Positions 12,651 to 55,344 of a DNA stretch of 64,000 bases are shown in pieces (the stretch's first letter is position 1; each line of letters starts with the position of its first letter). The stretch lies in NCBI RefSeq assembly GCF_002095575.1, contig NZ_MLJJ01000023.1, positions 1 to 64,000 on the forward strand, given 5' to 3'. The notes under the pieces are model-generated. The model worked only from the letters and a program-made list of their open reading frames with translations, did no database searches and was not told the origin of the DNA. A program made the position numbers and the translations under genes. Source of the stretch: Pantoea septica. GTDB taxonomy: Bacteria > Pseudomonadota > Gammaproteobacteria > Enterobacterales > Enterobacteriaceae.

Positions 12651-13651
12651 AGAAATTAACCGCCGCGGCGCTGCTGGCTGCATGCGGTATGGCGAGCCAT
12701 GCCGCCTACGCGGCGGAAAGCGCCATCTGCTACAACTGCCCGCCGGAGTGGGCGGACTGGGGAACGCAGCTGAAAGCCATCGCGCGCGACACCGGCATCC
12801 AGGTGCCGCAGGACAACAAAAATTCCGGCCAGGCGCTGGCGCAGATGGTCGCCGAGCAGGGCAATCCGGTTGCCGACGTGGTCTATTACGGCGTCAGCTT
12901 CGGCATCCAGGCGGCGGGCGCCGGCGTTGTCGCCGACTATAAACCGGCGCACTGGGATGAGGTGCCAACAGGCATGAAGGATCCTGACGGCAAGTGGGTG
13001 GCGCTACACTCCGGCACCATGGGCTTTATGGTCAATGTCGATGCGCTGGGCGGCGCGCCGCTGCCGACATCCTGGGATGACCTGCTGAAGCCGGAGTATA
13101 AAGGCATGGTGGGCTATCTCGATCCCTCCAGCGCCTTCGTCGGCTACGTCGCCGCCGTGGCGGTTAACCAGGCAAAAGGCGGCACCCTGCAGAATTTCGC
13201 GCCGGCGTTGAGCTGGTTCAAAAAGCTGCAGGCCAACCAGCCGATCGTGCCGAAGCAGACCGCCTACGCGCGCCTGATTTCTGGCGAGATCCCCATTCTG
13301 CTCGACTACGACTTCAACGCCTACCGCGCGAAGTACAAAGACCACGCCAACGTCGCTTTCGTGATCCCGCAAGAGGGCACGGTCACGGTGCCGTACGTCA
13401 TTAGTCTGGTGAAGAACGCGCCGCACGCCGCCAACGGCAAAAAAGTGATCGATTACGTGCTCTCGGATAAAGGTCAGGCTATCTGGGCCAACGCTTATCT
13501 GCGTCCGGTGCGCCCGACGGCGATGTCCGCCGAGGCAAAGGCGAAGTTCCTGCCTGACAGCGATTATGCTCGCGCCACGACGGTGGATTACCAGCAGATG
13601 GCCGATGCGCAGAAGGCTTTTTCCGCCCGCTACCTGAGCGAGATCCGTTAA
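12629..13651 (+). CDS. ABC transporter periplasmic substrate-binding protein (family 1, iron/phosphonate-type)
   Basis: The 340-aa protein has a signal peptide of about 28 residues ending SHAAYA. A bacterial extracellular solute-binding fold of the group that contains ferric-iron, putrescine and 2-aminoethylphosphonate binders follows. Automatic annotation often calls such proteins iron transporters. However, I see no tyrosine-rich iron site I could defend, and the operon ends in a phosphoesterase, so a phosphorylated or phosphodiester substrate is the better guess. It overlaps the LacI gene at its start and its stop overlaps the next start by one base (TAATG). Confidence 0.85.
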   Translation: MSSHNRIKKLTAAALLAACGMASHAAYAAESAICYNCPPEWADWGTQLKAIARDTGIQVPQDNKNSGQALAQMVAEQGNPVADVVYYGVSFGIQAAGAGVVADYKPAHWDEVPTGMKDPDGKWVALHSGTMGFMVNVDALGGAPLPTSWDDLLKPEYKGMVGYLDPSSAFVGYVAAVAVNQAKGGTLQNFAPALSWFKKLQANQPIVPKQTAYARLISGEIPILLDYDFNAYRAKYKDHANVAFVIPQEGTVTVPYVISLVKNAPHAANGKKVIDYVLSDKGQAIWANAYLRPVRPTAMSAEAKAKFLPDSDYARATTVDYQQMADAQKAFSARYLSEIR

Positions 13652-14523
13652 TGTCGCTGCTGGAAACCCGCGGCCGCGCGCCGATCGCACTGCGCCGTCG
13701 GGCGCATCAGGGCGCACGCTGGCCCTGGATGCTGCTGCCTGCGCTGCTATTTCTCGCCGCCTTCTGGCTGCTGCCTTTCGGGCGGCTGCTGCAGACTGGC
13801 CTCTCGCCGGATCGCACCACACAGAGGAGCGGCTACTGGACGGTGGTAAGCCAGCCGCAGTATCTGCAAAGCCTGCTCAATACCCTGCTGCTGTCGCTGG
13901 CGGTGACGCTGGTAACGCTGCTGATCGCCACCGTGGTCGGCTGTTTCCTGGCGCGTCAGCGCTTCGCCGGACGCGGCACGCTGCTGGCGCTGCTGACCTT
14001 TCCGCTCGCCTTTCCCGGCGTGGTTGTGGGGTTTCTGGTGGTAATGCTGGCGGGGCGACAGGGGGTGCTGGCGCAGCTGAGCATGAGCCTGTTCCACGAG
14101 CGCTGGACGCTCGCCTATTCGCTCAGCGGCCTCTTTATCGGCTATCTCTACTTCTCCCTGCCGCGCGCCATCGTCACCCTGGTGGCGGCCAGCGAAAAGC
14201 TGGATCGCTCGCTGGAGGAGGCGGCGCGCTCGCTGGGCGCCAGCCAGTGGCGCATCATCTGGGACGTTATCGTGCCGGGACTCAAGCCGGCGCTGCTCTC
14301 CAGCGGCGCGCTCTGCTTCGCCACCAGCATGGGCGCCTTCGGCACCGCCTTTACCCTCGGCACCAGCCTTAGCGTGCTGCCGCTGACTATTTACGGCGAG
14401 TTCACTAACTATGCCAATTTCGCCACCGCGGCGGCGCTGTCGGTGGCGATGGGCGCGGTCGCCTGGCTCGGCCTGATGCTGGCGCGCGCGCTGACGCACG
14501 CTGGAGGAGAGCGACCATCATGA
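13651..14523 (+). CDS. ABC transporter permease (first of pair)
   Basis: This inner-membrane permease has 290 aa and about six helices. The ATPase-contacting EAA loop is at EEAARSLGASQWRIIWDVIVPGLKP (about 190-214; read as EEAARSLGA..W followed by VIVPGLKP). It belongs to the binding-protein-dependent transport permease family and would form a heterodimer with the following permease. Stop and start of the two overlap by 4 bp (ATGA), indicating coupled synthesis. Its amino-terminal tail of about 25 residues is basic (RAPIALRRRAHQGAR), consistent with a cytoplasmic N-terminus. Substrate specificity cannot be read from the permease itself. Confidence 0.87.
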   Translation: MSLLETRGRAPIALRRRAHQGARWPWMLLPALLFLAAFWLLPFGRLLQTGLSPDRTTQRSGYWTVVSQPQYLQSLLNTLLLSLAVTLVTLLIATVVGCFLARQRFAGRGTLLALLTFPLAFPGVVVGFLVVMLAGRQGVLAQLSMSLFHERWTLAYSLSGLFIGYLYFSLPRAIVTLVAASEKLDRSLEEAARSLGASQWRIIWDVIVPGLKPALLSSGALCFATSMGAFGTAFTLGTSLSVLPLTIYGEFTNYANFATAAALSVAMGAVAWLGLMLARALTHAGGERPS

Positions 14524-15331
14524 AACGTCGCGCGCTGTTCTGGCTGCAGGTCGGCGTTACCGCGCTGACGGCGCTGTTTATGATCGTGCCGGTGGTGCTG
14601 TCGATGCTGGCGGGCGTCACGGAGAATTACTTTATCGGCCTGCGCAGCGGCCTGACGCTGAAGTGGGTCGGTCAGGTGTGGGCGCTCTACGCCGACACCT
14701 TCTGGCTGTCGCTGCTTATTGCGGTCTGCTGCCTGGCGATTACCGTCGCGATCGGGCTGCCCGCCGCCTGGGGGCTGCTGAAGGCGCCGCCGCGCTGGGC
14801 TGCCCGAATCGAGGAGTGCCTGATGCTGCCGGTGGCGCTGCCGGGCCTCGCCACCGCGCTCGGCATTATTCTGCTTTACGGCCGGTTTAGCGGCCTGCGC
14901 GACAGCTGGCTGTTTATCCTGATCGGCCATGTGCTCTTTACGCTGCCCTTTATGATCCGTCCGGTACTGGCGGTGATGCAGGCGATTCAGCTGCCGCGCC
15001 TCGAAGAGGCGGCCGCCAGCCTCGGCGCCGGTTTCTGGCGCCGCTTTTTCACCGTGGTGGTGCCGAACTGCCGCAACGGCATTCTGGCGGGGGCGTTTAT
15101 GGTGATTACGCTGTCGGTAGGCGAGTTCAATATTACCTGGATGCTGCATACGCCGCTGACCAAAACCCTGCCGGTCGGGCTGGCGGACAGCTACGCCTCG
15201 ATGCGGCTGGAAGTGGGATCGGCCTATACGCTGATTTTTATCGTCATGATTTTACCGCTGTTGCTGATGCTCAACGCCTGCAATCACTGGCTGACGCGCC
15301 AGGCGACGCGGAACGCCCTTAAGGAGCTGGC

Positions 15332-40412: not shown

Positions 40413-42413
40413 TTACGCTGGCTTGAGTAACGACTCCGCCTGCGCCACGATGTTTTCCACCGTGAAGCCGAAAGCAGGGAAGAGCTTGCCTGCCGGCGCG
40501 GATTCGCCGAAGGTGGTCATGCCGACGATTTTGCCGTCGATGCCGACATATTTGTACCAGTAGTCGGCGATGCCCGCCTCAACCGCGACGCGCGCGCGCA
40601 CCGTCGACGGCAGCACCGATTCGCGCCAGGCGATATCCTGCTTGTCGAACACGTCGGTGCTCGGCAGCGACACCACGCGCACTTTGTGGCCGTCGGCGGT
40701 CAGCTTCTCCGCCGCGCCCAGCGTGATCTCCACTTCGGAACCGGTGGCAATCAGAATGATATCCGGCGTGCCGTCGCTGTCCTTCAGCACGTAGCCGCCG
40801 CGCGCGATATTCTCGACCTGCTCCGGACTACGTTCCGGCTGCAGCAGGTTCTGGCGCGACAGGATCAGCGCGGTCGGACCTTGATGGCGCTCAATCGCGG
40901 CTTTCCACGCCACCGCCGTCTCAACCTGGTCGCAGGGCCGCCAGGTGCTGAAGTTCGGCGTCAGGCGCAGGCTGGCGAGCTGTTCGACCGGCTGGTGCGT
41001 CGGGCCGTCTTCGCCGAGGCCGATGGAGTCATGGGTATAGACCATAATCTGCCGCGCTTTCATCAGCGCCGCCATACGCGCGGCGTTGCGCGCATACTCC
41101 ACGAACATCAGGAAGGTGGCGGTGTAGGGCACGAAGCCGCCGTGATGGGCGATACCGTTGGCGATAGCGGTCATGCCGAACTCGCGCACGCCGTAGTGAA
41201 TATAGTTGCCCGCCGGATCTTCTTTAATCGGCTTCGAACCTGACCAGATGGTAAGGTTGCTCGGCGCGAGGTCCGCCGATCCGCCCAGCAGTTCCGGCAG
41301 CAGCGAGCCGAGATGCTCCAGCGTATTTTGCGACGCTTTGCGGCTGGCGATCTTCTGCGGATTGGCCTGCAGGTCGGTAATGAACTTATGGGTCTCGCTC
41401 TCCCACGTCGACGGCATTTCGCCGTTCATGCGGCGCTGGTACTCCTCAGCCAGCTCCGGATGCGCCTGCTTATAGGCGGCCAGCTTGTCGTTCCAGGCGC
41501 GCTCGCGCTCGGCGCCCGCCTCTTTGGCGTCCCACTGCTGATAGATCTCCTGCGGGATTTCAAACGGCGGCGAGGTCCAGCCCAGCTCTTTACGCGCCAG
41601 CGCCACTTCCGCGTCGCCCAGCGCCGCGCCGTGCGACTCCTCTTTACCGGCTTTGTTCGGCGAACCGAAACCGATAACGGTGCGGCAGATAATCAGCGAC
41701 GGCTTGTCGGTGACGCTCTGCGCCTCTTTAATCGCGCGGCTCACCGCCTCGGCGTCGTGGCCGTCGATCTCGCCGACGACGTGCCAGTTGTAGGCTTCGA
41801 AACGCTTATGGGTGTCGTCGGTAAACCAGCCTTCTGTTTCGCCGTCGATAGAGATGCCGTTGTGGTCATAGAAACCGATCAGCTTGCCGAGGCCGAGCGT
41901 GCCCGCCAGCGAGCAAACTTCATGGGAGATCCCCTCCATCAGGCAGCCGTCGCCCATAAACACATAGGTAAAGTGGTCGACGATATCGTGACCCGGACGG
42001 TTGAACTGCGCGCCCAGCGTGCGTTCGGCGATCGCCAGGCCTACGGCGTTGGCCAGCCCCTGGCCCAGCGGACCGGTGGTGGTTTCTACGCCCGGCGTGT
42101 AGCCGATTTCCGGGTGGCCCGGCGTTTTAGAGTGCAGCTGACGGAAGTTCTTCAGCTCTTCCATCGGCAGATCGTAGCCGGTGAGGTGCAGCAGGCTATA
42201 GAGCAGCATCGAGCCGTGGCCGTTGGAAAGAATAAAACGGTCGCGGTCGGCCCATGCGGGGTTAGTCGGGTTATGTTTCAGGTAGTCGCGCCACAGCACT
42301 TCGGCGATGTCCGCCATGCCCATCGGCATGCCCGGGTGACCTGAGTTCGCTTTTTGTACCGCATCCATACTTAACGCACGAATCGCGTTCGCCAGCTCTC
42401 TGCGTGATGACAT
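40413..42413 (-). CDS. tktB: Transketolase (TktB type)
   Basis: Transketolase moves two-carbon units between sugar phosphates using thiamine diphosphate, linking the pentose phosphate path with glycolysis; erythrose 4-phosphate is one of its substrates. Start 42413 ([20 protein letters not shown]) gives 666 aa, as for E. coli TktB (667). The thiamine site [19 protein letters not shown], the catalytic His in [12 protein letters not shown] and the C-terminal [16 protein letters not shown] are present. It follows talA on the same strand, the talA-tktB arrangement of E. coli. Its identity as TktB rather than TktA rests on that linkage and residues such as [11 protein letters not shown]. Confidence 0.95.
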
Positions 42414-42441
42414 AGGGTTCTCCCTTCGTTGAGCAGAAGTG

Positions 42442-42460
42442 CGGGCGGGAAACCCGCCCG
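42442..42460 (-). other. Perfect stem-loop between talA and tktB
   Basis: CGGGCGGG (42442-42449) and CCCGCCCG (42453-42460) form an eight-pair GC stem with an AAA loop. It sits in the 67-bp gap between the co-directional talA and tktB. With no T-run, it is more likely an mRNA-processing or stability element than a terminator. Confidence 0.55.
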
Positions 42461-42480
42461 ACAAAATTAACAGGCAGAAA

Positions 42481-43431
42481 CTACAGGCGCGCGGCCAGCA
42501 CGTCTTCGAGTTTCTGCTGATCGACGGCAAACTGACGGATGCCGTCGGAAAGTTTTTCTACCGCCATCGGATCCTGGTTGTGCTCCCAGCGGAACTCCGC
42601 TTCAGAGAGCGACGCAGGCTGGTGGAAACCTTCGGTCGACGGCTCCAGCTTGCGCTCAACCGGCGCGTCGCTGTTCTGCAGCTCTTCCAGCAGGTTCGGA
42701 GAGATAGTCAGGCGGTCGCAGCCCGCCAGCGCAATAATCTGCTCTACTTTACGGAAGCTCGCGCCCATGATGATGGTGCTGTAGCGGTGCTTTTTGTAGT
42801 AGTCGTAGATGCGACGTACCGATTTCACGCCCGGATCTTCGTCGACCACATACGGGTCGAGCGGCTTGCGGCTGTTGTACCAGTCATAGATACGGCCGAC
42901 GAACGGCGAAATCAGGAAGACGCCCGCTTCGGCGCAGGCGCGCGCCTGGGCGAAGGAGAAGAGCAGCGTCAGGTTGCAGTGGATGCCGTTTTTCTCCAGC
43001 TCCTCGGCCGCTTTGATGCCTTCCCAGGTGGACGCCAGCTTGATCAGAATGCGCGAGCGGTCGATGCCGTGCTCTTCATACAGGCGAACCAGTTTTTCCG
43101 CTTTGGTCACGCACATGCCACGATCGAAAGAGAGGCGCGCATCTACTTCGGTCGAAACACGGCCCGGTACGCTTTTCAGGATTTCCATACCGAGGTTAAT
43201 GGCGACTTTATCGCTGGCGTTGATAATCTGCGTCTCTTTGCTGCCGCCCTGCTTTTTCGCATAGTCGATAGCATCGTCGATCAGGTGCTTGTAGCCTTCG
43301 AGACCGGCAGCTTTCAGGATCAGAGAAGGGTTGGTGGTCGCGTCTTCAGGATGGTAGTTGCGAATGGATTCGATATCGCCGCTGTCCGCCACGACGGTAG
43401 TAAACTGTTTTAATGCCTCTAGCTGGTTCAT
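42481..43431 (-). CDS. talA: Transaldolase A
   Basis: Transaldolase transfers a dihydroxyacetone unit between sedoheptulose 7-phosphate and glyceraldehyde 3-phosphate, producing or using erythrose 4-phosphate. The 316-aa protein has the Schiff-base Lys131 in [16 protein letters not shown], the [10 protein letters not shown] and DATTNPSL segments, and the phosphate-binding Arg in [12 protein letters not shown]. Length and sequence match E. coli TalA. It precedes tktB. The apionate cluster beginning 275 bp away makes D-erythrose 4-phosphate, the metabolite these two enzymes share. Confidence 0.95.
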
Positions 43432-43707: not shown

Positions 43708-44172
43708 TTAGCGGCAGGCGTTTTGCGCCGTCTGCTCGTAGAAGCCAATCTTTTCCACTTTTTCCGTCGATCCGCCGCCTTCAAACTCCGACGCCAGCCA
43801 GGCGTTGACGATCGATTTCGCCAGTTCAGGCCCGACGACGCGCGCGCCCAGCGTCATCACCTGCGCATTGTTGCTTTTGCGCGCGCGTTCGGCGGAGTAG
43901 GTGTCGTGGCACTGCGCCGCACGAATGCCCGGCACCTTGTTAGCGACGATCGCCATACCAATACCGGTGCCGCATACCAGAATGCCGCGGGCGAACTTGC
44001 CGTCGCTGATGGCGTTCGCCAGGCTCCAGGCGATGTCGGGATAGATCGGCAGGTCGTGGCGCGCATCGTTGCTGTAATCCACCACTTCGTAGTGCAGCGA
44101 TTCAAGGTGACGTTTAATCAGGTTTTTCAGTTCCAGCGCCGCGTCATCGGCGCCAATCGCAATGGTGCTCAT
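43708..44172 (-). CDS. derI: D-erythrulose 4-phosphate isomerase (RpiB/LacAB family)
   Basis: This 154-aa RpiB-fold isomerase has the active-site Cys67 in GILVCGTGIGMAIVANKVPG and the closing Arg segments (GIRAAQCHDTYSAERARKSN). The RpiB-type opening G-C-D-H is G-A-D-D here, so it is not a plain ribose 5-phosphate isomerase. In described tetritol and apionate pathways a homologue (DerI/EryI) converts D-erythrulose 4-phosphate to D-erythrose 4-phosphate. Divergent placement beside kinase and TIM-like isomerase genes supports this role. The substrate is inferred from context. GGAG precedes the start. Confidence 0.72.
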   Translation of the reverse strand: MSTIAIGADDAALELKNLIKRHLESLHYEVVDYSNDARHDLPIYPDIAWSLANAISDGKFARGILVCGTGIGMAIVANKVPGIRAAQCHDTYSAERARKSNNAQVMTLGARVVGPELAKSIVNAWLASEFEGGGSTEKVEKIGFYEQTAQNACR

Positions 44173-44248
44173 CCGGTTTTCTCCAGGTATTTAACAGGGC
44201 CCGCAAGCCGGGCGGAAAGTCATGCTCGATTTCAGCCTGCCATACTTT

Positions 44249-44263
44249 TGTTCATATGTTCAA
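44249..44263. promoter_or_regulatory. Operator-like repeat near derI (TGTTCAT pair)
   Basis: TGTTCAT and TGTTCAA start 8 bp apart (44249 and 44257). They sit inside a wider inverted repeat CATACTT / AAGTATG (44241-44247, 44262-44268). The same pair recurs at 44432-44446 before the divergent operon, so one regulator probably binds both promoters. Confidence 0.55.
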
Positions 44264-44369
44264 GTATGTTTCATTTGTTTTTGGCGAGGCAGGCAAAGGT
44301 GGCGCGATATTAATCGCTGCAAACCGGCACCCGGACGGGCATTTTTCTTAATTGTTGTGGAAAAACGTT

Positions 44370-44391
44370 TCGTTTGAGAGCGATCACATTT
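44370..44391. promoter_or_regulatory. Candidate CRP site in the apionate divergent promoter
   Basis: TTTGA-N6-TCACA within a 22-base window ending TCACATTT matches one CRP half-site fully and the other at four of five bases. Position between the divergent genes suits catabolite control of a carbon-source operon. Confidence 0.5.
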
Positions 44392-44412
44392 TTGCAAACT
44401 GCGCTTGAGGGA

Positions 44413-44446
44413 TGTTCATTTAATCGTTTAGTGTTCATTTGTTCAT
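44413..44446. promoter_or_regulatory. Operator-like TGTTCAT repeats before the transporter operon
   Basis: TGTTCAT occurs at 44413, 44432 and 44440, the last two 8 bp apart exactly like the pair at 44249. The spacing and sharing by both divergent promoters suggest a site for the SorC-type regulator encoded at the end of the operon. Confidence 0.55.
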
Positions 44447-44483
44447 GTGGGCGGCAACAATAAGATCCTTCGAGGTGACCGCC

Positions 44484-44570
44484 ATGACACTTACCGACCC
44501 GACTGCGCGCCCTGCGGCGCGCTTACCAGGAAACCAGCGCGCCTCGTCGCGCTGTGGAGGCGCAATATGA
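44484..44570 (+). CDS. Putative 28-aa leader ORF coupled to the transporter gene
   Basis: An ATG at 44484 follows GAGGTGACC and opens a 28-codon frame (MTLTDPTARPAARL...). Its TGA at 44568-44570 overlaps the transporter ATG at 44567 as ATGA. The transporter's own Shine-Dalgarno (GTGGAGG) lies inside this frame. The peptide is Ala/Arg/Pro-rich and resembles nothing I know. It could be a coupling leader, or chance; the well-placed ribosome site and the exact overlap are the only support. Confidence 0.4.
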   Translation: MTLTDPTARPAARLPGNQRASSRCGGAI

Positions 44571-45898
44571 CGCAACAGACGCAGGCGCAGATCGAACAGT
44601 CCACCATTCGCAAAATCTCATGGCGACTGGTGCCGTTCGTGGCGCTGATGTTCTTCATCAACTTTCTTGACCGTACCGCCATTTCCTTCGCCGGGCCGAA
44701 CGGCATGACGCAGGATCTGGGGCTGAGCGCCGCGCAATTTGGGCTCGCCTCGGGCATCTTTTTTATTGGCTATATTCTGCTGGAGGTGCCGAGCAATCTT
44801 GCGCTGCACCGCTTCGGCGCGCGTAAATGGCTGGCGCGCATTATGGTGAGCTGGGGCGTGGTGTCGCTGCTGTTCGCCTGGGTAAGCAGCGTCGAGGGTC
44901 TCTATACGCTGCGCCTGCTGCTTGGCATTGCGGAGGCGGGCTTCTTTCCCGGCGCGATTCTCTATCTCAGCCTGTGGGTGCCAGCACGCCATCGCAGCAA
45001 AATCCTTTCGCTGTTCTACCTGGCGCAGCCGCTGACTGTGGTCTTCGGCGCACCGCTGGCGGCAGGCATGATCGAGCAGCACGGCCTGTTTGGCATGGAG
45101 GGCTGGCGTCTGATGTTTATCGGCGTATCGATTCCCGCCATCCTGATCGGCGTCGTGACGTTATTTTGGCTGGTGGATGCGCCGCGCGACGCGCGCTGGC
45201 TTACTGGCGAAGAGAAACAGTGGCTGACGCGCGAGCTGGAGAGCGAGCACGCCGCCAAGCAAAACGCGCATCCTGGCGTGCGCACCGTGCTGAGCAACGG
45301 CCGCGTCTGGCTGCTCTGCCTGATCTACTTCGGCTTCATCTATGGCCTTTACGCGCTCGCCTTTTTCCTGCCGACCATCATCGGTGGTTTTCAGCAGCAG
45401 TTCGGCACCACCTTTAACGTGATGCAAAAAGGGCTGATCACCGGCGCGCCCTATCTGGTGGCAGCCGTGGTGATGTTTTTCTGGTCGCGCGACGCCTCGC
45501 GCCGCGGCTGTAAAACCTGGCATATCGCTCTGCCTGCGCTAGCGGGCGGCATCAGCGTGCCGCTGGCGCTCTATATGAACTCGCCGCTCAGCACCATGTT
45601 GGTTATCGCCGTTACCGCCAGCTCTATCTTTGCCGCGCTGCCCAACTTCTGGACCCTGCCGACGCAGTTTCTGTCCGGCGCCTCTGCCGCCGCCGCCATC
45701 GCCCTGATCAATACGCTCGGCAACGTGGCGGGCTTCTCGGCAGGCTACATCACCGGCGCGCTGCACGACGCCACGCAAAGTTACACGCTGCCGATGATGG
45801 TGGTGGGCGGCTTTATGCTGCTGTCAGCCCTGCTGATGCTGCTGCTGAACCGCCGCCGCGCTGAACCGCTGGCCTCCTCACTTGCTCAGGAGCATTAA
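44567..45898 (+). CDS. MFS transporter, anion:cation symporter type (probable D-apionate uptake)
   Basis: A 12-helix inner-membrane carrier of 443 aa. The start at 44567 follows GTGGAGG; the frame continues to 44447 without support. Family features include the N-terminal FINFLDRTAISFAGPNGM, the loop HRFGARKWLARIM between helices 2 and 3, and a long central loop (about 195-235). The sequence type is that of carriers for organic and sugar acids (tartrate, glucarate, phthalate relatives). As first gene of the operon it most likely imports the substrate, a sugar acid such as D-apionate. Specificity is inferred. Confidence 0.82.
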   Translation: MTQQTQAQIEQSTIRKISWRLVPFVALMFFINFLDRTAISFAGPNGMTQDLGLSAAQFGLASGIFFIGYILLEVPSNLALHRFGARKWLARIMVSWGVVSLLFAWVSSVEGLYTLRLLLGIAEAGFFPGAILYLSLWVPARHRSKILSLFYLAQPLTVVFGAPLAAGMIEQHGLFGMEGWRLMFIGVSIPAILIGVVTLFWLVDAPRDARWLTGEEKQWLTRELESEHAAKQNAHPGVRTVLSNGRVWLLCLIYFGFIYGLYALAFFLPTIIGGFQQQFGTTFNVMQKGLITGAPYLVAAVVMFFWSRDASRRGCKTWHIALPALAGGISVPLALYMNSPLSTMLVIAVTASSIFAALPNFWTLPTQFLSGASAAAAIALINTLGNVAGFSAGYITGALHDATQSYTLPMMVVGGFMLLSALLMLLLNRRRAEPLASSLAQEH

Positions 45899-45900
45899 TC

Positions 45901-47646
45901 ATGACGTATCTCTATAACCAGCCCTCTGCCTTTGCGGCGGAGCTGATCGAAGGTTTTGTCGCGGCCAACGCGGATAAAGTCCGCCAGGTGCCTGGCGGCG
46001 TGGTGCGCAGCACGCGCAGCCAGCCCGGCACGGTGGCGGTGGTGGTGGGCGGCGGCTCTGGCCACTATCCCGCCTTCGCCGGACTGGTAGGCCAGGGCAT
46101 GGCGCACGGCGCCGCCATGGGCAATCTGTTCGCTTCGCCGTCGGCGCAGCAAATAGTTAACGTGGCGCGCGCGGCGCACAACGGCGGCGGCGTGCTGCTC
46201 ACCTTTGGCAACTACGCCGGCGACGTGCTGCATTTCGGTCAGGCGTGCGAGCGCCTGAGGGCCGAAGGCATCGCCTGCGAGGTGGTGACGGTCACCGATG
46301 ATATCTCCAGCGCCAGTCTGGAAGAGATTGAAAAGCGCCGCGGCGTCGCAGGAGATTTAACCGTATTCAAAGTCGCCAGCGCCGCCGCCGAAGCGGGCCA
46401 CAGCCTGGCGCAGGTGGCCGCGCTGGCGCGTCATGCCAACCAGCGCACGCGTTCTTTTGGCGTCGCGTTCTCCGGCTGTACCTTGCCTGGGGCGACGCAG
46501 CCGCTGTTCAGCATCGACGCCGGGCGCATGGCGCTCGGCATGGGTATTCACGGCGAGCCAGGCATCAGCGAAAGCGACGTGCCGCGCGCCGACGTGCTGG
46601 CGGAAATCTTCGTCGACAACCTGCTGAGCGAGCTGCCGGCGGGCGTCAAACTGCAGCCAGGCACGCGCGTGGCGGCGGTCCTCAACGGCCTGGGATCGGT
46701 GAAATATGAAGAGCTGTTCGTGGTCTATCGCCGCGTTGCGCAGCTGCTGCGCGAACAGCAGCTGGAGATTGTCGAGCCTGAAGTGGGCGAATTCGTCACC
46801 AGCTTTAATATGGCAGGCGCATCGCTGACGCTGATGTGGCTGGATGAGGCGTTGGAACAGTGCTGGCGCGCCCCGGCCAACGCGCCGGCTTTTCGCAAAG
46901 GCAGCGTGATCGTCGCCGAACCGCTGGAGGCCAGCGAGTGCCAGCAGGCGACGCAGAACGCAATTCCCGCCGCCAGCGTCGCGTCGCAGCAGAGCGCGCA
47001 GCGCGTGCTGGCGATACTCGACGCCATCGCCGTCGTGATACAACGCAATGCTGAACAGCTGGGGCGCATCGACGCCGTTGCCGGCGACGGTGACCACGGC
47101 ATCGGCATGGAGCGCGGCGTACTGGGCGCGCTGGCGCAGGCGCGTGACGTTGCGGCGCAGGGCGCGGGCGCGGGCACGCTGCTGTGCCAGGCCGCCGACG
47201 CCTGGGCGGATAAGGCGGGCGGCACTTCGGGCGCGCTGTGGGGCGTGGCGCTGACCGCCATCGGTACCGCGCTCGGCGACGAAAGCAAGCCCGACGCGCA
47301 GCGTGTCGCTGAAGGGGTGAAGCAGGCTAAAGAGGGCATTATGCACTTCGGCAAAGCCCAACCCGGTGACAAAACCATGGTGGATGTGCTGGTGCCGTTC
47401 AGCGACAGCCTGAGCGCGGCGGTCGCGCGAGGGGAGGCGCTGCCTGACGCCTGGCAGCTGGCGGCCGAAACGGCGCAGGCCGCTGCGCAGGCCACCGCAC
47501 AGCTGCTGCCGAAGATGGGCCGCGCCCGTCCGCTGGCGGAGAAAAGCCTGGGCACGCCGGACGCCGGCGCGGTGTCGCTGGCGCTGATTGTCGCCACGGT
47601 GGCAGAGCGTCTACGCGCACTCCAGCCGCAGGGAGCCTCAGTATGA
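45901..47646 (+). CDS. lerK: L-erythrulose kinase-type DhaKL fusion protein
   Basis: This 581-aa ATP-dependent ketose kinase of the dihydroxyacetone kinase family has the two domains fused. DhaK (about 1-330) has GGGSGHYPAFAGLVGQGMAHG and the substrate-binding His217 in GMGIHGEPG. DhaL (about 355-580) has the Mg-ATP site GDGDHGIGMERG, GGTSGALWG and PGDKTMVDVL. In the apionate and tetritol pathways this family member (LerK) phosphorylates L-erythrulose at C1. The TIM-like isomerase gene that would take the product follows with a 4-bp overlap. A dihydroxyacetone kinase role is the alternative. Confidence 0.8.
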   Translation: MTYLYNQPSAFAAELIEGFVAANADKVRQVPGGVVRSTRSQPGTVAVVVGGGSGHYPAFAGLVGQGMAHGAAMGNLFASPSAQQIVNVARAAHNGGGVLLTFGNYAGDVLHFGQACERLRAEGIACEVVTVTDDISSASLEEIEKRRGVAGDLTVFKVASAAAEAGHSLAQVAALARHANQRTRSFGVAFSGCTLPGATQPLFSIDAGRMALGMGIHGEPGISESDVPRADVLAEIFVDNLLSELPAGVKLQPGTRVAAVLNGLGSVKYEELFVVYRRVAQLLREQQLEIVEPEVGEFVTSFNMAGASLTLMWLDEALEQCWRAPANAPAFRKGSVIVAEPLEASECQQATQNAIPAASVASQQSAQRVLAILDAIAVVIQRNAEQLGRIDAVAGDGDHGIGMERGVLGALAQARDVAAQGAGAGTLLCQAADAWADKAGGTSGALWGVALTAIGTALGDESKPDAQRVAEGVKQAKEGIMHFGKAQPGDKTMVDVLVPFSDSLSAAVARGEALPDAWQLAAETAQAAAQATAQLLPKMGRARPLAEKSLGTPDAGAVSLALIVATVAERLRALQPQGASV

Positions 47647-48416
47647 CGCAGCCCGCTATCTGGCTGGGAACCAGCCTGAAAATGTATTTCAGCTACGCGC
47701 AGACGCTGGCATGGTGCCGCGCGGTCGCGCAGATTGCGCGCCAGCATCCTGCGGTGCGCGACGGACGCGTCGGCCTGTTTGTGCTGCCCGCTTTTCCGGC
47801 GCTACCGGCGGTAAAAGCGCTGTTTGCCGATACGCCGGTGCGCGTCGGCGCGCAAAATATCGCGCCCGCCGCCAGCGGCGCCTGGACCGGCGAGGTGAGC
47901 GCCAGCATGGTGCAGGAGCTGGGCGGAACGCTGGCGGAGATAGGCCATGCGGAACGCCGCCGTCACTTTGCGGAAAACGATGCGCAGATCTCTGCAAAAG
48001 TCGCGCTGGCGTTGCAGTCCCATCTGACGCCTGTGCTGTGCATCGGCGAGGCGCAGCAGGATACGCCCGACGCGGCGGCAGAGGCGTGCGCCATACAGCT
48101 TAGGCGCGCGCTGGCCGAGGCGCAGTCGCTGCACGGCAGCCTGCTGCTGGCCTACGAGCCGCAGTGGGCGATCGGCGCGCCGCAGCCCGCGCCGGAAGGC
48201 CATATTCGCGCGGTGTGCCGCGCCTTGCGCCAGCAGCCGCTGCCGCCAGGCATCACGCTGCAGGTGATCTACGGCGGCAGCGCCGGCCCTGGCCTGCTGA
48301 GTCGGCTGGAAGAGAGCGTCGACGGCTTGTTTCTCGGCCGCTTCGCCCACGATCCCGCCGCGCTGGCGCAGATAGTTGACGAAGCCGACGCGCTGCTGGC
48401 GAGGGAGAGCGTATGA
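47643..48416 (+). CDS. lerI: L-erythrulose 1-phosphate isomerase (triosephosphate-isomerase-like)
   Basis: A 257-aa TIM-barrel enzyme with all three catalytic residues of the triosephosphate isomerase family: Lys13 (GTSLKMYF), His102 (EIGHAERR) and Glu172 (AYEPQWAIGA), plus the phosphate-binding YGGSAGPG. The opening differs from the usual NWKMN of housekeeping TpiA, as in the LerI/EryH group. That group turns L-erythrulose 1-phosphate into D-erythrulose 4-phosphate. Location between the kinase and the other pathway genes, with 4-bp overlaps on both sides, supports this. The role is inferred from family and operon. Confidence 0.78.
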   Translation: MTQPAIWLGTSLKMYFSYAQTLAWCRAVAQIARQHPAVRDGRVGLFVLPAFPALPAVKALFADTPVRVGAQNIAPAASGAWTGEVSASMVQELGGTLAEIGHAERRRHFAENDAQISAKVALALQSHLTPVLCIGEAQQDTPDAAAEACAIQLRRALAEAQSLHGSLLLAYEPQWAIGAPQPAPEGHIRAVCRALRQQPLPPGITLQVIYGGSAGPGLLSRLEESVDGLFLGRFAHDPAALAQIVDEADALLARESV

Positions 48417-49222
48417 GCCGGATTGGATTAAGCACCTACGCCTTTTTCTGGCGCCTGTCGGAACGCGCCCCGCAGCCGCTGACGCTGGCGCAAATGCTGC
48501 AGCAGACCGCCGACCTCGACGTGCCGGTGTTTCAGATTTGCGACTACCCGGCGATTGAAAGCTGGAGCGACGCGCAATTGGGCGCCCTGAAGCAGCAGGC
48601 CGACGCCCTCGGCATCACGCTGGAGCTGGGCACGCGCGGCCTCGCCACCGCCCATCTGCAGCGCTATCTGCATATGGCGGCGCTGCTGGAAGCGAAAGTC
48701 ATCCGCTCAATGTGCTTTACCGCCAGCCATCGTCCGTCGCCTGCCGAGGCGCAGCAGCTTATCGCCGATGTGCTGCCCGCTTTCGAACGTCAGCAGGTCA
48801 AACTCTGCCTGGAAATCTATGAGCAAATCTCCAGCGCCGATCTGATGGCACTTATCGACCTTTTCCCTTCGCCATGGCTGGCGGTCTGTCTCGATCCGGC
48901 CAACTGCGTGGCGGGACTGGAGCTGCCGCAGCAGGTCATCGCCAACACCGTCGCGCGCGTCGGCAACCTGCACATCAAAGATTTCGCCTTTTCGCGCCGC
49001 GACGGCTGGGTCGGCTTTACCCTGGCGGGCGTGCCGCTCGGCGAAGGGCTGCTGGATTACGACGCGCTGATCGCCAGCGTGCGGCCAGCCGAAAAAGGCA
49101 TTAACCAGATTATCGAGCACTGGCTGCCGTGGCAGGAGAGCGCAGAGCGCACCTGCCAGCTGGAAGCGCAGTGGACGCAGCGCTGCGTCGAATTCTTACG
49201 TCGTAAACAAGATCAGGAGTAA
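48413..49222 (+). CDS. oiaC: 3-Oxo-isoapionate decarboxylase-type TIM-barrel enzyme
   Basis: This 269-aa protein of the xylose isomerase-like / AP endonuclease 2 superfamily has the metal ligands in order: Glu134 (LCLEIYE), Asp161 (VCLDPANC), His187 (NLHIKDF) and Glu235 (IIEHWLP). In the described D-apionate route the family member OiaC decarboxylates 3-oxo-isoapionate to L-erythrulose. The neighbours here (ApnO-like oxidoreductase after it, erythrulose kinase before it) are what that route needs. A plain sugar-phosphate epimerase is the alternative. Overlaps lerI by 4 bp and is 4 bp from the next gene. Confidence 0.7.
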   Translation: MSRIGLSTYAFFWRLSERAPQPLTLAQMLQQTADLDVPVFQICDYPAIESWSDAQLGALKQQADALGITLELGTRGLATAHLQRYLHMAALLEAKVIRSMCFTASHRPSPAEAQQLIADVLPAFERQQVKLCLEIYEQISSADLMALIDLFPSPWLAVCLDPANCVAGLELPQQVIANTVARVGNLHIKDFAFSRRDGWVGFTLAGVPLGEGLLDYDALIASVRPAEKGINQIIEHWLPWQESAERTCQLEAQWTQRCVEFLRRKQDQE

Positions 49223-49226
49223 CACC

Positions 49227-50084
49227 ATGAGCAATCAACTGAAAACCATTACTGTTATTGGCGCAGGCGGCAAAATGGGCATGCGCATCTCCGCCAACCT
49301 GCAGCGCAGCGACTATCAGGTCTTCTACTGCGAAAACTCGCCGCAGGCGCAGGCGCAGATCGGCGCTCAGGGTCGCGAAATTTCCGACGCCGCCTCGGTG
49401 GTGCCGCTGAGCGACGTGGTCATTCTGGCGGTGCCCGATATCGTACTGGGCAAGGTCTCGGAAACGGTGGTGCCGCAAATGAAGCGCGATGCGGTGCTGC
49501 TGACGCTCGATCCGGCGGCGGCCTACGCCAATCTTATCGCCCAGCGTGACGATATCGAGTATGCGGTGGCGCACCCCTGCCATCCGTCGGTATTCCTGCA
49601 GCGCTACACCAAAGAGGAGCATGAGGATGCCTTTGGCGGCGTGGCGGCGATCCAGCATATCGCGGCGGCGTGGGAGAACGGCAGCGACGCGCAGAGGGCG
49701 GAGCTGGCGAAGGTGATCAACGTGATGTATGGCCCGGTGGATCAGGTGCACTGGGTGACGGTGACGCAGCTCGCCTATCTGGAGCCGACGCTGGTGGAAA
49801 CCGTCGCCTGCATGGTCGGCGCCTTTATGAAAGAGGCGCTGGATGAGACGGTAAAACACAGCGGCGTGCCGGAAGAGGCGGCGAAGGCGATGCTTTACGG
49901 CCATATCCAGATCGCGCTGGCGGTCGCCTTCCGCGCCACCAACCCTTTCTCGGACGCTTGCATGATCGCCATGGAGTATGGCCGCGAGAAGATCGTCAAG
50001 CCGGACTGGAAGCAGATCTTCGATCAAAAAGAGCTGGATATCGTGATTGCGCGCATGCTGAAAATTGACGCCATCCGCCGCTGA
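49227..50084 (+). CDS. apnO: D-apionate oxidoisomerase-type NAD-dependent dehydrogenase
   Basis: The 285-aa protein starts with a Rossmann nucleotide-binding loop GAGGKMG at residues 12-18 and keeps a 6-phosphogluconate dehydrogenase-like N-domain (SDVVILAVPDIVLGKVSE). An all-helical C-terminal half follows (about 165-285). Conserved AHPCHPSVF near residue 113 marks the subgroup. ApnO of the apionate route oxidises and rearranges D-apionate to 3-oxo-isoapionate with NAD+. The presence of every later enzyme of that route in the same operon is the main support. GATCAGGAG precedes the start. An unrelated hydroxyacid dehydrogenase remains possible. Confidence 0.7.
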   Translation: MSNQLKTITVIGAGGKMGMRISANLQRSDYQVFYCENSPQAQAQIGAQGREISDAASVVPLSDVVILAVPDIVLGKVSETVVPQMKRDAVLLTLDPAAAYANLIAQRDDIEYAVAHPCHPSVFLQRYTKEEHEDAFGGVAAIQHIAAAWENGSDAQRAELAKVINVMYGPVDQVHWVTVTQLAYLEPTLVETVACMVGAFMKEALDETVKHSGVPEEAAKAMLYGHIQIALAVAFRATNPFSDACMIAMEYGREKIVKPDWKQIFDQKELDIVIARMLKIDAIRR

Positions 50085-50185
50085 TATGTGATGATGAAAG
50101 CGGCTCACGGGCGCTTGCCTGGCTAAGTGAGCCGCATCAGTGTTATAAATCCTGGCAGTTAACGGCAACGCTCAATCAGGTCACG

Positions 50186-51152
50186 ATGGAAAAACATACC
50201 CTCGCTCCGGACACGGAACTGCTGACGGAAATCGCCGTCGCTTACTATCAGGATGAGATCACACAGGAAGAGATCGCGCGCAAGTTCGGCATCTCGCGCA
50301 TCAAAGTCGGACGACTGCTGAAACGGGCGAAAGAAGAGGGCATTGTCGAGATCAATGTTCGCTACCATCCGGTATTCAGTACCCGACTGGAGCAGCAGCT
50401 GCTGGATCGCTTTCCGCAGCTGCAGCGCGCGCTGATCGCGCTTGACCAGCAGGATGGCGACGAGCAGCGTCGTCAGGTGGCGGCGCTGGTCTCGGCGCAT
50501 CTGGCGCAAAAATCTCAAAGAGAACACCGTGGTGGCGGTAGGACAGGGGCGTAACGTCGCGGCGGTGGCCGATCATCCCGGCGCGGTGCCGCTGCGCAAC
50601 TGTCACTTTATCTGCGGTATTGGCGGCACCCATCGCCCGGGCGACGCCATCAACGCCGATCATATCAGCCGCCGGCTGGCGAAAAAGTTCGGCGGCTTTA
50701 GCGAAACGCTCTATGCGCCCGCCTATGTGGAAAACCGTGCGCTGAAAGAGGCGTTTATGCAGAACGGCACCATTAAAGAGACGCTGGATCGCGCGCGCAA
50801 AGCGGATATCGCTCTGGTGGGCATCGGCGATATGAATGAAAACAGCTATATGGTCAAACTCGGCTGGTTTACGCCGCATGAAATTATCGATGCCAGCGTC
50901 AATCAGGGCGTCACCGGCGACGTGGCGGGCTACGACTTTTTCAACGCTCAGGGCCAACACGTGGACACGGTGATGAACGATCGCGTCATCGGTCTGAGCA
51001 TCGACGAGCTGCGTAAAATTCCCTGCGTTATCGCCATCGCTGCGGAAAACACCAAAGCGATGGCGCTGCTCGGCGCGCTGCGCACCGGCGCTATCGATAT
51101 CGTCGCCACCTCTGCGCAGAACATCCGGACCATCCTCAGTATGACGCAGTAG
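50186..51152 (+). pseudogene. SorC/DeoR-type transcriptional regulator with a one-base frameshift
   Basis: The first frame (50186-50554) encodes a helix-turn-helix (TQEEIARKFGISRIKVGRLL, about residues 25-45) and the start of a sugar-binding domain. A second frame continues it to 51152 from NLKENTVVAVGQGRNVAAVAD, through DHISRRLAKKFGG, to NTKAMALLGALRTGAIDIV. They join if one A is removed from the A5 run at 50508-50512, giving 321 aa, the normal SorC length. As sequenced, the product is truncated to 122 aa, with DNA binding but no effector domain. It ends the apionate operon and presumably controlled it. A homopolymer sequencing error is a serious alternative. Confidence 0.82.

Positions 51153-51268: not shown

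Positions 51269-55344
<4,076 letters not shown>

Follow-up and report, generated by a model that had tools for sequence, protein, structure and literature searches.

The stretch analysed here is a 64,000-nucleotide part of contig C23 of Pantoea septica (source assembly of 4.3 Mb in 89 contigs), referred to below as the window, and the system in question is a gene cluster at its positions 43708-51152. This locus is quite probably a regulated D-apionate catabolic unit, which consists of two modules and ends in D-erythrose 4-phosphate. We assign it to this pathway because the relatives of its ApnO-like enzyme occur with OiaK or the lactonase ApnL, the unit is conserved from Enterobacterales to Streptomyces, and its predicted operator is common to the cluster and to ApnL. 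The cluster is a conserved member of an already described pathway type, and the initial annotation, which had called it a D-apionate cluster, was right in outline. Gene content, conservation, modularity, the retention of an operator-like 14-mer and the linkage to ApnL and OiaK are observed, whereas every substrate named below, as well as the effector of the regulator, is one that we infer.

In the proposed route, a carrier of the major facilitator superfamily (MFS) would import D-apionate, the ApnO-like enzyme would form 3-oxo-isoapionate from it by oxidation and rearrangement, and L-erythrulose would arise when the OiaC-like metal enzyme decarboxylates this product (module A). A DhaKL-like kinase (LerK) would then convert L-erythrulose to L-erythrulose 1-phosphate, a triosephosphate isomerase (TIM)-like protein (LerI) would turn this into D-erythrulose 4-phosphate, and an RpiB-like protein (DerI) would yield D-erythrose 4-phosphate (module B), which transaldolase and transketolase would consume. 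The divergent promoter is predicted to hold TTGAACA-type operators bound by a SorC/DeoR-type regulator, which in relatives would bind before ApnL as well.

Candidate genes and enzyme families

The features of the locus, with window coordinates, are as follows.
43708-44172, minus strand: derI candidate, RpiB/LacA/LacB-family isomerase (PF02502; CGTGIG motif)
44173-44566, no strand: divergent regulatory region, the gap between the derI candidate and the MFS gene
44249-44262, plus strand: predicted SorC operator copy 1, TGTTCATATGTTCA (14-mer match)
44373-44391, plus strand: presumably a CRP-like site, with a TGA-N6-TCACA core, conserved in the regional alignment
44432-44445, plus strand: predicted SorC operator copy 2, TGTTCATTTGTTCA (14-mer match)
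44567-45898, plus strand: MFS carrier, proposed apionate importer (PF07690)
45901-47646, plus strand: lerK candidate, fused DhaK-DhaL kinase (PF02733 and PF02734)
47643-48416, plus strand: lerI candidate, TIM-like isomerase (PF00121)
48413-49222, plus strand: oiaC candidate, xylose-isomerase-like TIM barrel (PF01261)
49227-50084, plus strand: apnO candidate, Rossmann oxidoisomerase (PF16896 and KARI_N)
50186-50554, plus strand: SorC-type regulator, helix-turn-helix (HTH) part (DeoR model NF053881, 60.6 bits, below cut-off)
50442-51152, plus strand: SorC-type regulator, sugar-binding part, in a different frame from the HTH part (PF04198)

All six structural genes run in one uninterrupted frame to a single terminal stop, and their proteins are 94-99% identical to the counterparts in Pantoea latae, the nearest named relative (93.3% nucleotide identity across 16 kb). 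Thus, of the seven-gene divergent unit claimed at first, six genes lie where they had been placed and agree with Pfam, while the SorC regulator is not intact. The window contains no tRNA and no Rfam family reaching the gathering score. A second RpiB-family match is present on contig C3 of the source genome.

The ApnO relatives provide the first line of evidence. The PF16896 and KARI_N domains, together with the loci of relatives, place the window protein at the level of the ApnO family, and it is 38-41% identical to ApnO of loci with OiaK or ApnL. We hand-picked 11 non-enterobacterial ApnO loci from the 40 listed of 251 matching plasmid records (two Erwiniaceae excepted). In the fetched flanks, 8 of the 11 contain OiaK, 9 contain ApnL, and all contain at least one of the two, with the queries for OiaK and ApnL coming from two of these same loci (C. 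necator and Salipiger), where they had been identified by NCBIfam. The C. necator OiaK scored 767.8 bits, above the cut-off of 700, and the Salipiger ApnL 632.8 bits, below that of 750. The C. necator N-1 locus (L006) has the order MFS - ApnO - RuBisCO-like protein - OiaK; the window carrier is 66-67% identical to the ApnO-adjacent MFS proteins of C. necator (66%) and Caballeronia (L134), and in Paracoccus (L132) a gene annotated as OiaX lies two genes away from ApnO. This neighbourhood of OiaK and ApnL, as well as the 66% identity of the carrier, ties the ApnO family and the carrier to apionate. In the accessible part of one report, a marine strain with genes for ApnO, OiaK, a decarboxylase, a dehydrogenase and a lactonase grows on D-apiose (PMC11747546).

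For the other enzymes, the evidence is more distant. The DhaKL-like kinase scored 759.5 bits on the PRK14479 subfamily (cut-off 492) and 380.1 bits on the glycerone kinase model, below its cut-off of 574.95. The best PDB relative of the TIM-like protein is an L-erythrulose-1-phosphate isomerase (LerI, 11ef; 130.2 bits), closely followed by a putative TIM (124.6 bits) and a TIM (112 bits). We rejected the possibility that this gene is a plain housekeeping triosephosphate isomerase, since a separate TIM on contig C11 fits PF00121 far better (327.5 versus 174 bits). In the OiaC-like protein, E134, D161, H187 and E235, which we take to be putative metal ligands from the fold family, do not vary among the 17 aligned proteins; a PDB sequence search gave no relative of this protein, and the described OiaC reportedly belongs to the xylose isomerase family. 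Two other pathways were also rejected: the threonate/erythronate pathway, as no PdxA2- or OtnK-type domain occurs in the cluster proteins, and the AptA/B apiose pathway, as the cluster has no split transketolase.

The described counterpart is the ApnO-OiaC-LerK-LerI-DerI route from D-apionate, reportedly the subject of Carter et al. 2018 (Nat Chem Biol 14:696); its five enzyme families reportedly match those of the present cluster one to one. What differs here is the presence of the MFS carrier, the SorC-type regulator, the predicted operators and the maeB-talA site, and that neither a lactonase nor a close apiose dehydrogenase was found. The RuBisCO-like route (ApnO-OiaK-OiaX; C. necator N-1 and Paracoccus) shares the ApnO family and, in C. 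necator, the 66% identical MFS protein, but it uses OiaK and a RuBisCO-like decarboxylase, whereas the present cluster would use OiaC and the tetrulose steps. According to the accessible part of PMC10733421, the LerK/LerI/DerI tetritol module reaches erythrose 4-phosphate through the same three final steps, with LerI and DerI functioning in E. coli lacking tktAB; that module is fed by a tetritol dehydrogenase, while the one here would be fed by apionate decarboxylation. The AptA/AptB transketolase pathway for D-apiose in Pectobacterium and E. coli ST131 likewise concerns apiose catabolism in enterobacteria, but its gene set differs, a distinction drawn from the description in the accessible part of PMC13001218 and not from sequence comparison.

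One sampled locus has an unusual composition. In Shinella (L128, 6000-15971), a LerK-like kinase (52%) adjoins ApnO, ApsD and ApnL relatives; no OiaC, OiaK or RuBisCO-like match occurs in the fetched 16.8 kb, which leaves the decarboxylation step unexplained there.

Conservation, modules and insertion site

A scan of genome contigs with the OiaC-like protein, which covers close relatives, found 29 loci in Pantoea, Erwinia, Mixta, Izhakiella, Rouxiella, Serratia, some genomes called Enterobacter, and Streptomyces mutabilis. The kinase, TIM-like, OiaC-like and ApnO-like genes occur together in 30 loci (L002, L003, L008-L035), which also hold rpiB and the MFS gene unless a contig end intervenes. 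The same gene order is present on plasmids of Erwinia sp. E602 and Pantoea sp. At-9b. In S. mutabilis (L035, 3574-9661), the six genes lie on one strand and are 45-65% identical (OiaC-like 54%), with no SorC gene in the fetched stretch; judging from this locus, the predicted apionate route reaches Actinomycetota. Within the genus, 33 of 61 genomes have ApnO, two of them as copies that look broken from their coordinates (G466 and G469), which suggests that apionate use may be common in the genus. More widely, OiaC at E 1e-20 was found in 11 of 149 family genomes and 4 of 295 order genomes, two overlapping samples that include the source genome, and the segment 46300-50100, used alone as query, gave one short 75% match among 5426 E. 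coli genomes. In Pantoea sp. Eser, a stink-bug symbiont, the cluster lies in pieces (L036, 6439-9337), as if being lost.

The cluster is built of module A (MFS-OiaC-ApnO) and module B (DerI/LerK-LerI-SorC). Three genomes carry MFS-OiaC-ApnO with no kinase, TIM-like or rpiB gene in the fetched 17-18 kb (L065, L066 and L067), and in two of them a unit of RpiB, DhaKL, TIM-like and SorC genes is located elsewhere (L115 and L116).

The flanks of the cluster in the window are as follows.
40413-42530, minus strand: tktB, transketolase (open reading frame as listed; start probably near 42416)
42481-43431, minus strand: talA, transaldolase, a D-erythrose 4-phosphate user adjoining the insertion site (open reading frame)
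51269-53548, plus strand: maeB, the opposite flank of the insertion site (open reading frame listed from 51164)

The gap from the rpiB stop to talA is 276 bp, and tktB comes next. The initial annotation had taken this neighbourhood as support for the end product. The positions are as it described, but in E. coli K-12 maeB, talA and tktB are consecutive with no cluster, so that the adjacency of talA and tktB in the source genome marks the insertion site. We therefore rejected it as direct proof of pathway coupling, and the argument needs rewording. Better support for the link to D-erythrose 4-phosphate comes from clusters located elsewhere, which often bring their own tkt or tal. Specifically, tal or tkt adjoins rpiB on the same strand in 31 of 38 aligned loci (six have none, and L019 lacks sequence there); 17 of these 31 are at sites other than maeB-talA, and in 13 of the 17 the distance from the aligned rpiB end to tkt is 30-41 bp. 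Among the individual cases, L126 has a tkt fragment only, L025 has tkt in two frames, and L118 is perhaps a mixed case. This recurrent pairing may be read as a natural record of the carbon's destination.

As for the site itself, the cluster lies between maeB and talA in the source genome and in 12 aligned loci (10 distinct genomes). In a tree of ApnO, OiaC and TIM-like proteins (33 taxa, rooted on Streptomyces; L020, L021, L036 and repeat entries excluded), the deep branches are all at the maeB-talA site, or on the talA side in Serratia sp. M24T3. The other sites arise inside one Pantoea/Erwinia/Mixta group with a support of 0.67, within which CwR94, a maeB-talA member, is nested. The maeB-cluster-talA arrangement thus looks ancestral.

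The SorC-type regulator and its predicted operator

In the source genome, the SorC/DeoR-type HTH and sugar-binding parts are both present, but they lie in different frames and do not form one protein. The regulator gene is 96% identical to the P. latae copy, with a length differing by one base. Both parts are in one frame in 79 of the 81 fetched loci holding them, a count in which several genomes appear more than once; the two out-of-frame loci (L041 and L085) are the source genome, and the other 79 come from other genomes. The initial annotation had listed an intact regulator among a "complete" cluster, a word that is too strong given this frameshift. The split may be a true mutation or an assembly error. 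If the frameshift is real and the regulator is a repressor, expression should be constitutive in this strain; both this effect and repression as such are what we infer. Since the SorC gene travels with module B, the effector is probably a phosphorylated C4 intermediate. According to the accessible part of PMC11229326, the SorC-family repressors CggR and DeoR have sugar-phosphate effectors, and the DeoR half-operator is TTGAACAAAATTCAA.

The alignment of 25 rpiB-side gaps revealed the 14-mer TGTTCATWTGTTCA. Within the 64-kb window, allowing up to two mismatches, it occurs twice (0.24 expected), both times exactly and both times in the divergent gap. Read on the reverse strand, copy 1 is TTGAACATATGAAC, and the A following copy 1 gives TTGAACA on the other strand, a half-operator of the type seen in SorC/DeoR-type systems. 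The 14-mer was found in 34 of 34 divergent rpiB-MFS gaps, with two or more copies in 24, although this count, which contains two repeats (L073 and L074), is largely circular, as the motif was derived from 25 gaps that include 22 of these 34. Overall, there are 61 sites in 15.4 kb of gap and 6 in 556 kb outside (3.96 versus 0.011 per kb). A stand-alone core in G027 has two 2-mismatch sites in the preceding gap.

The non-circular result is that the 14-mer lies upstream of the pair formed by a second MFS gene and ApnL in all three genus genomes having ApnL: with one mismatch each in G438 and G439 (L125 and L127), and as two sites with two mismatches each in Pantoea sp. A4 (L029). At the background rate, the chance of finding it before three of the four ApnL pairs is near 1e-7, a rough figure, and two of the six background sites are those of A4. 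The predicted operator offers a handle for finding the missing upstream steps. In G027 (L115), a 1-mismatch site at 13516 precedes another MFS gene (13626-14951), a possible further regulon member.

Upstream steps and alternative readings

The initial annotation found no apiose dehydrogenase or apionolactonase gene in the window; this holds, and extends genome-wide as far as searched. A complete D-apiose pathway with these two enzymes was not found in the source genome: ApnL has no match, and for ApsD there are only 24-30% relatives of one ApsD, with no close apiose dehydrogenase. ApnL relatives occur in 3 of 61 genus genomes (557-569 bits), and the family sample of 149 yielded one strong match (G064) and one weak. 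A second MFS gene, possibly a lactone carrier, is paired with the ApnL relative in all four genomes examined (L029, L125, L127 and L037/L063). This pair lies about 16 kb from the cluster in G438, about 380 kb in G439, and directly adjoins it in Pantoea sp. A4. The source genome also encodes three membrane pyrroloquinoline quinone (PQQ) dehydrogenases above the cut-off, with no 14-mer in their fetched flanks. Taken together, the missing ApnL, the distant ApsD and the PQQ dehydrogenases suggest that the feedstock is likely apionate or periplasmically oxidised apiose. A tentative extension, which we regard as possible and rather doubtful, is that the PQQ dehydrogenases oxidise apiose to apionolactone in the periplasm; some species would take up and open the lactone through the second MFS protein and ApnL, while others, such as this strain, would import apionate. 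Import and decarboxylation as well as lactone opening would be governed through one operator by a single SorC-type repressor that senses a phosphorylated C4 sugar which only module B makes, even with the parts hundreds of kilobases apart.

Several results weigh against the apionate assignment. None of the window proteins reached an NCBIfam equivalog cut-off for ApnO, OiaC, LerK or LerI, and the RpiB-like protein stayed below the cut-off of the DerI model NF051858 (177.8 versus 240 bits) and passed that of the rpiB model TIGR01120 (142.8 versus 138.65 bits). The pathway assignment is well supported by gene context, and the one-to-one enzyme match proposed initially is a putative one at the level of the single enzymes. 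Searches of the 11 non-enterobacterial ApnO loci at E 1e-20, and of the six of them listed at E 1e-4, yielded no OiaC relative. Besides the missing ApnL in the source genome, the ApnL relatives overall score 557-600 bits, below the cut-off of 750. As for the operator, 10 of the 34 gaps have a single copy, the core in the third module A genome (G143) has a single 2-mismatch site, the ApnL pair of G064, outside the genus, has no 14-mer upstream, and neither module of G042 (L067 and L116) has one, though the motif was partly derived from the L116 gap. G143 also contains only 35-36% TIM relatives, one of them near separate DhaK and DhaL relatives.

Another branched or linear sugar acid could undergo like chemistry, namely oxidation, decarboxylation to a tetrulose, phosphorylation and isomerisation to erythrose 4-phosphate; the limited identity of the ApnO-like protein (38-41%) and the scarcity of ApnL in the genus would fit such a substrate. 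We consider this unlikely, in view of the 66-67% identity of the carrier to the MFS proteins of two OiaK loci, the 14-mer shared with ApnL in all three genus genomes having it, and the ApnL gene adjoining the cluster in Pantoea sp. A4. It is slightly less likely still that the cluster is decaying and no longer works in this strain, as the SorC frameshift and the fragmented copies in Pantoea sp. Eser and in G466/G469 might suggest: the six structural genes have open reading frames, their proteins match those of P. latae at 94-99% identity, both 14-mers are perfect, and the pathway could survive the loss of a repressor. That the cluster mainly serves tetrose/tetritol salvage (L-erythrulose to erythrose 4-phosphate), with a dispensable ApnO/OiaC part, is very improbable, because the kinase and TIM-like genes accompany OiaC and ApnO in 30 loci and module A is present as well in the two genomes where module B stands apart, even though module B with SorC can stand alone (L115 and L116) and LerK/LerI/DerI serve tetritol catabolism and work in E. 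coli according to the accessible part of PMC10733421.

Pantoea-like bacteria are plant dwellers, and apiose is a constituent of plant cell walls and of numerous plant glycosides. Literature searches, with subscription journals outside their reach, found no work naming both apiose and Pantoea, and nothing on-topic, by the listings, for apiose with a SorC operon or with periplasmic glucose dehydrogenase. A second, different cluster is present in another genome (L118, G471 contig C2, 8563-17316), with ApnO (81%), DhaKL (68%), MFS (61%), RpiB, tal and tkt and no OiaC or TIM-like match; open reading frames nearby appear, by eye, to be HAD-like and metallo-beta-lactamase-like.

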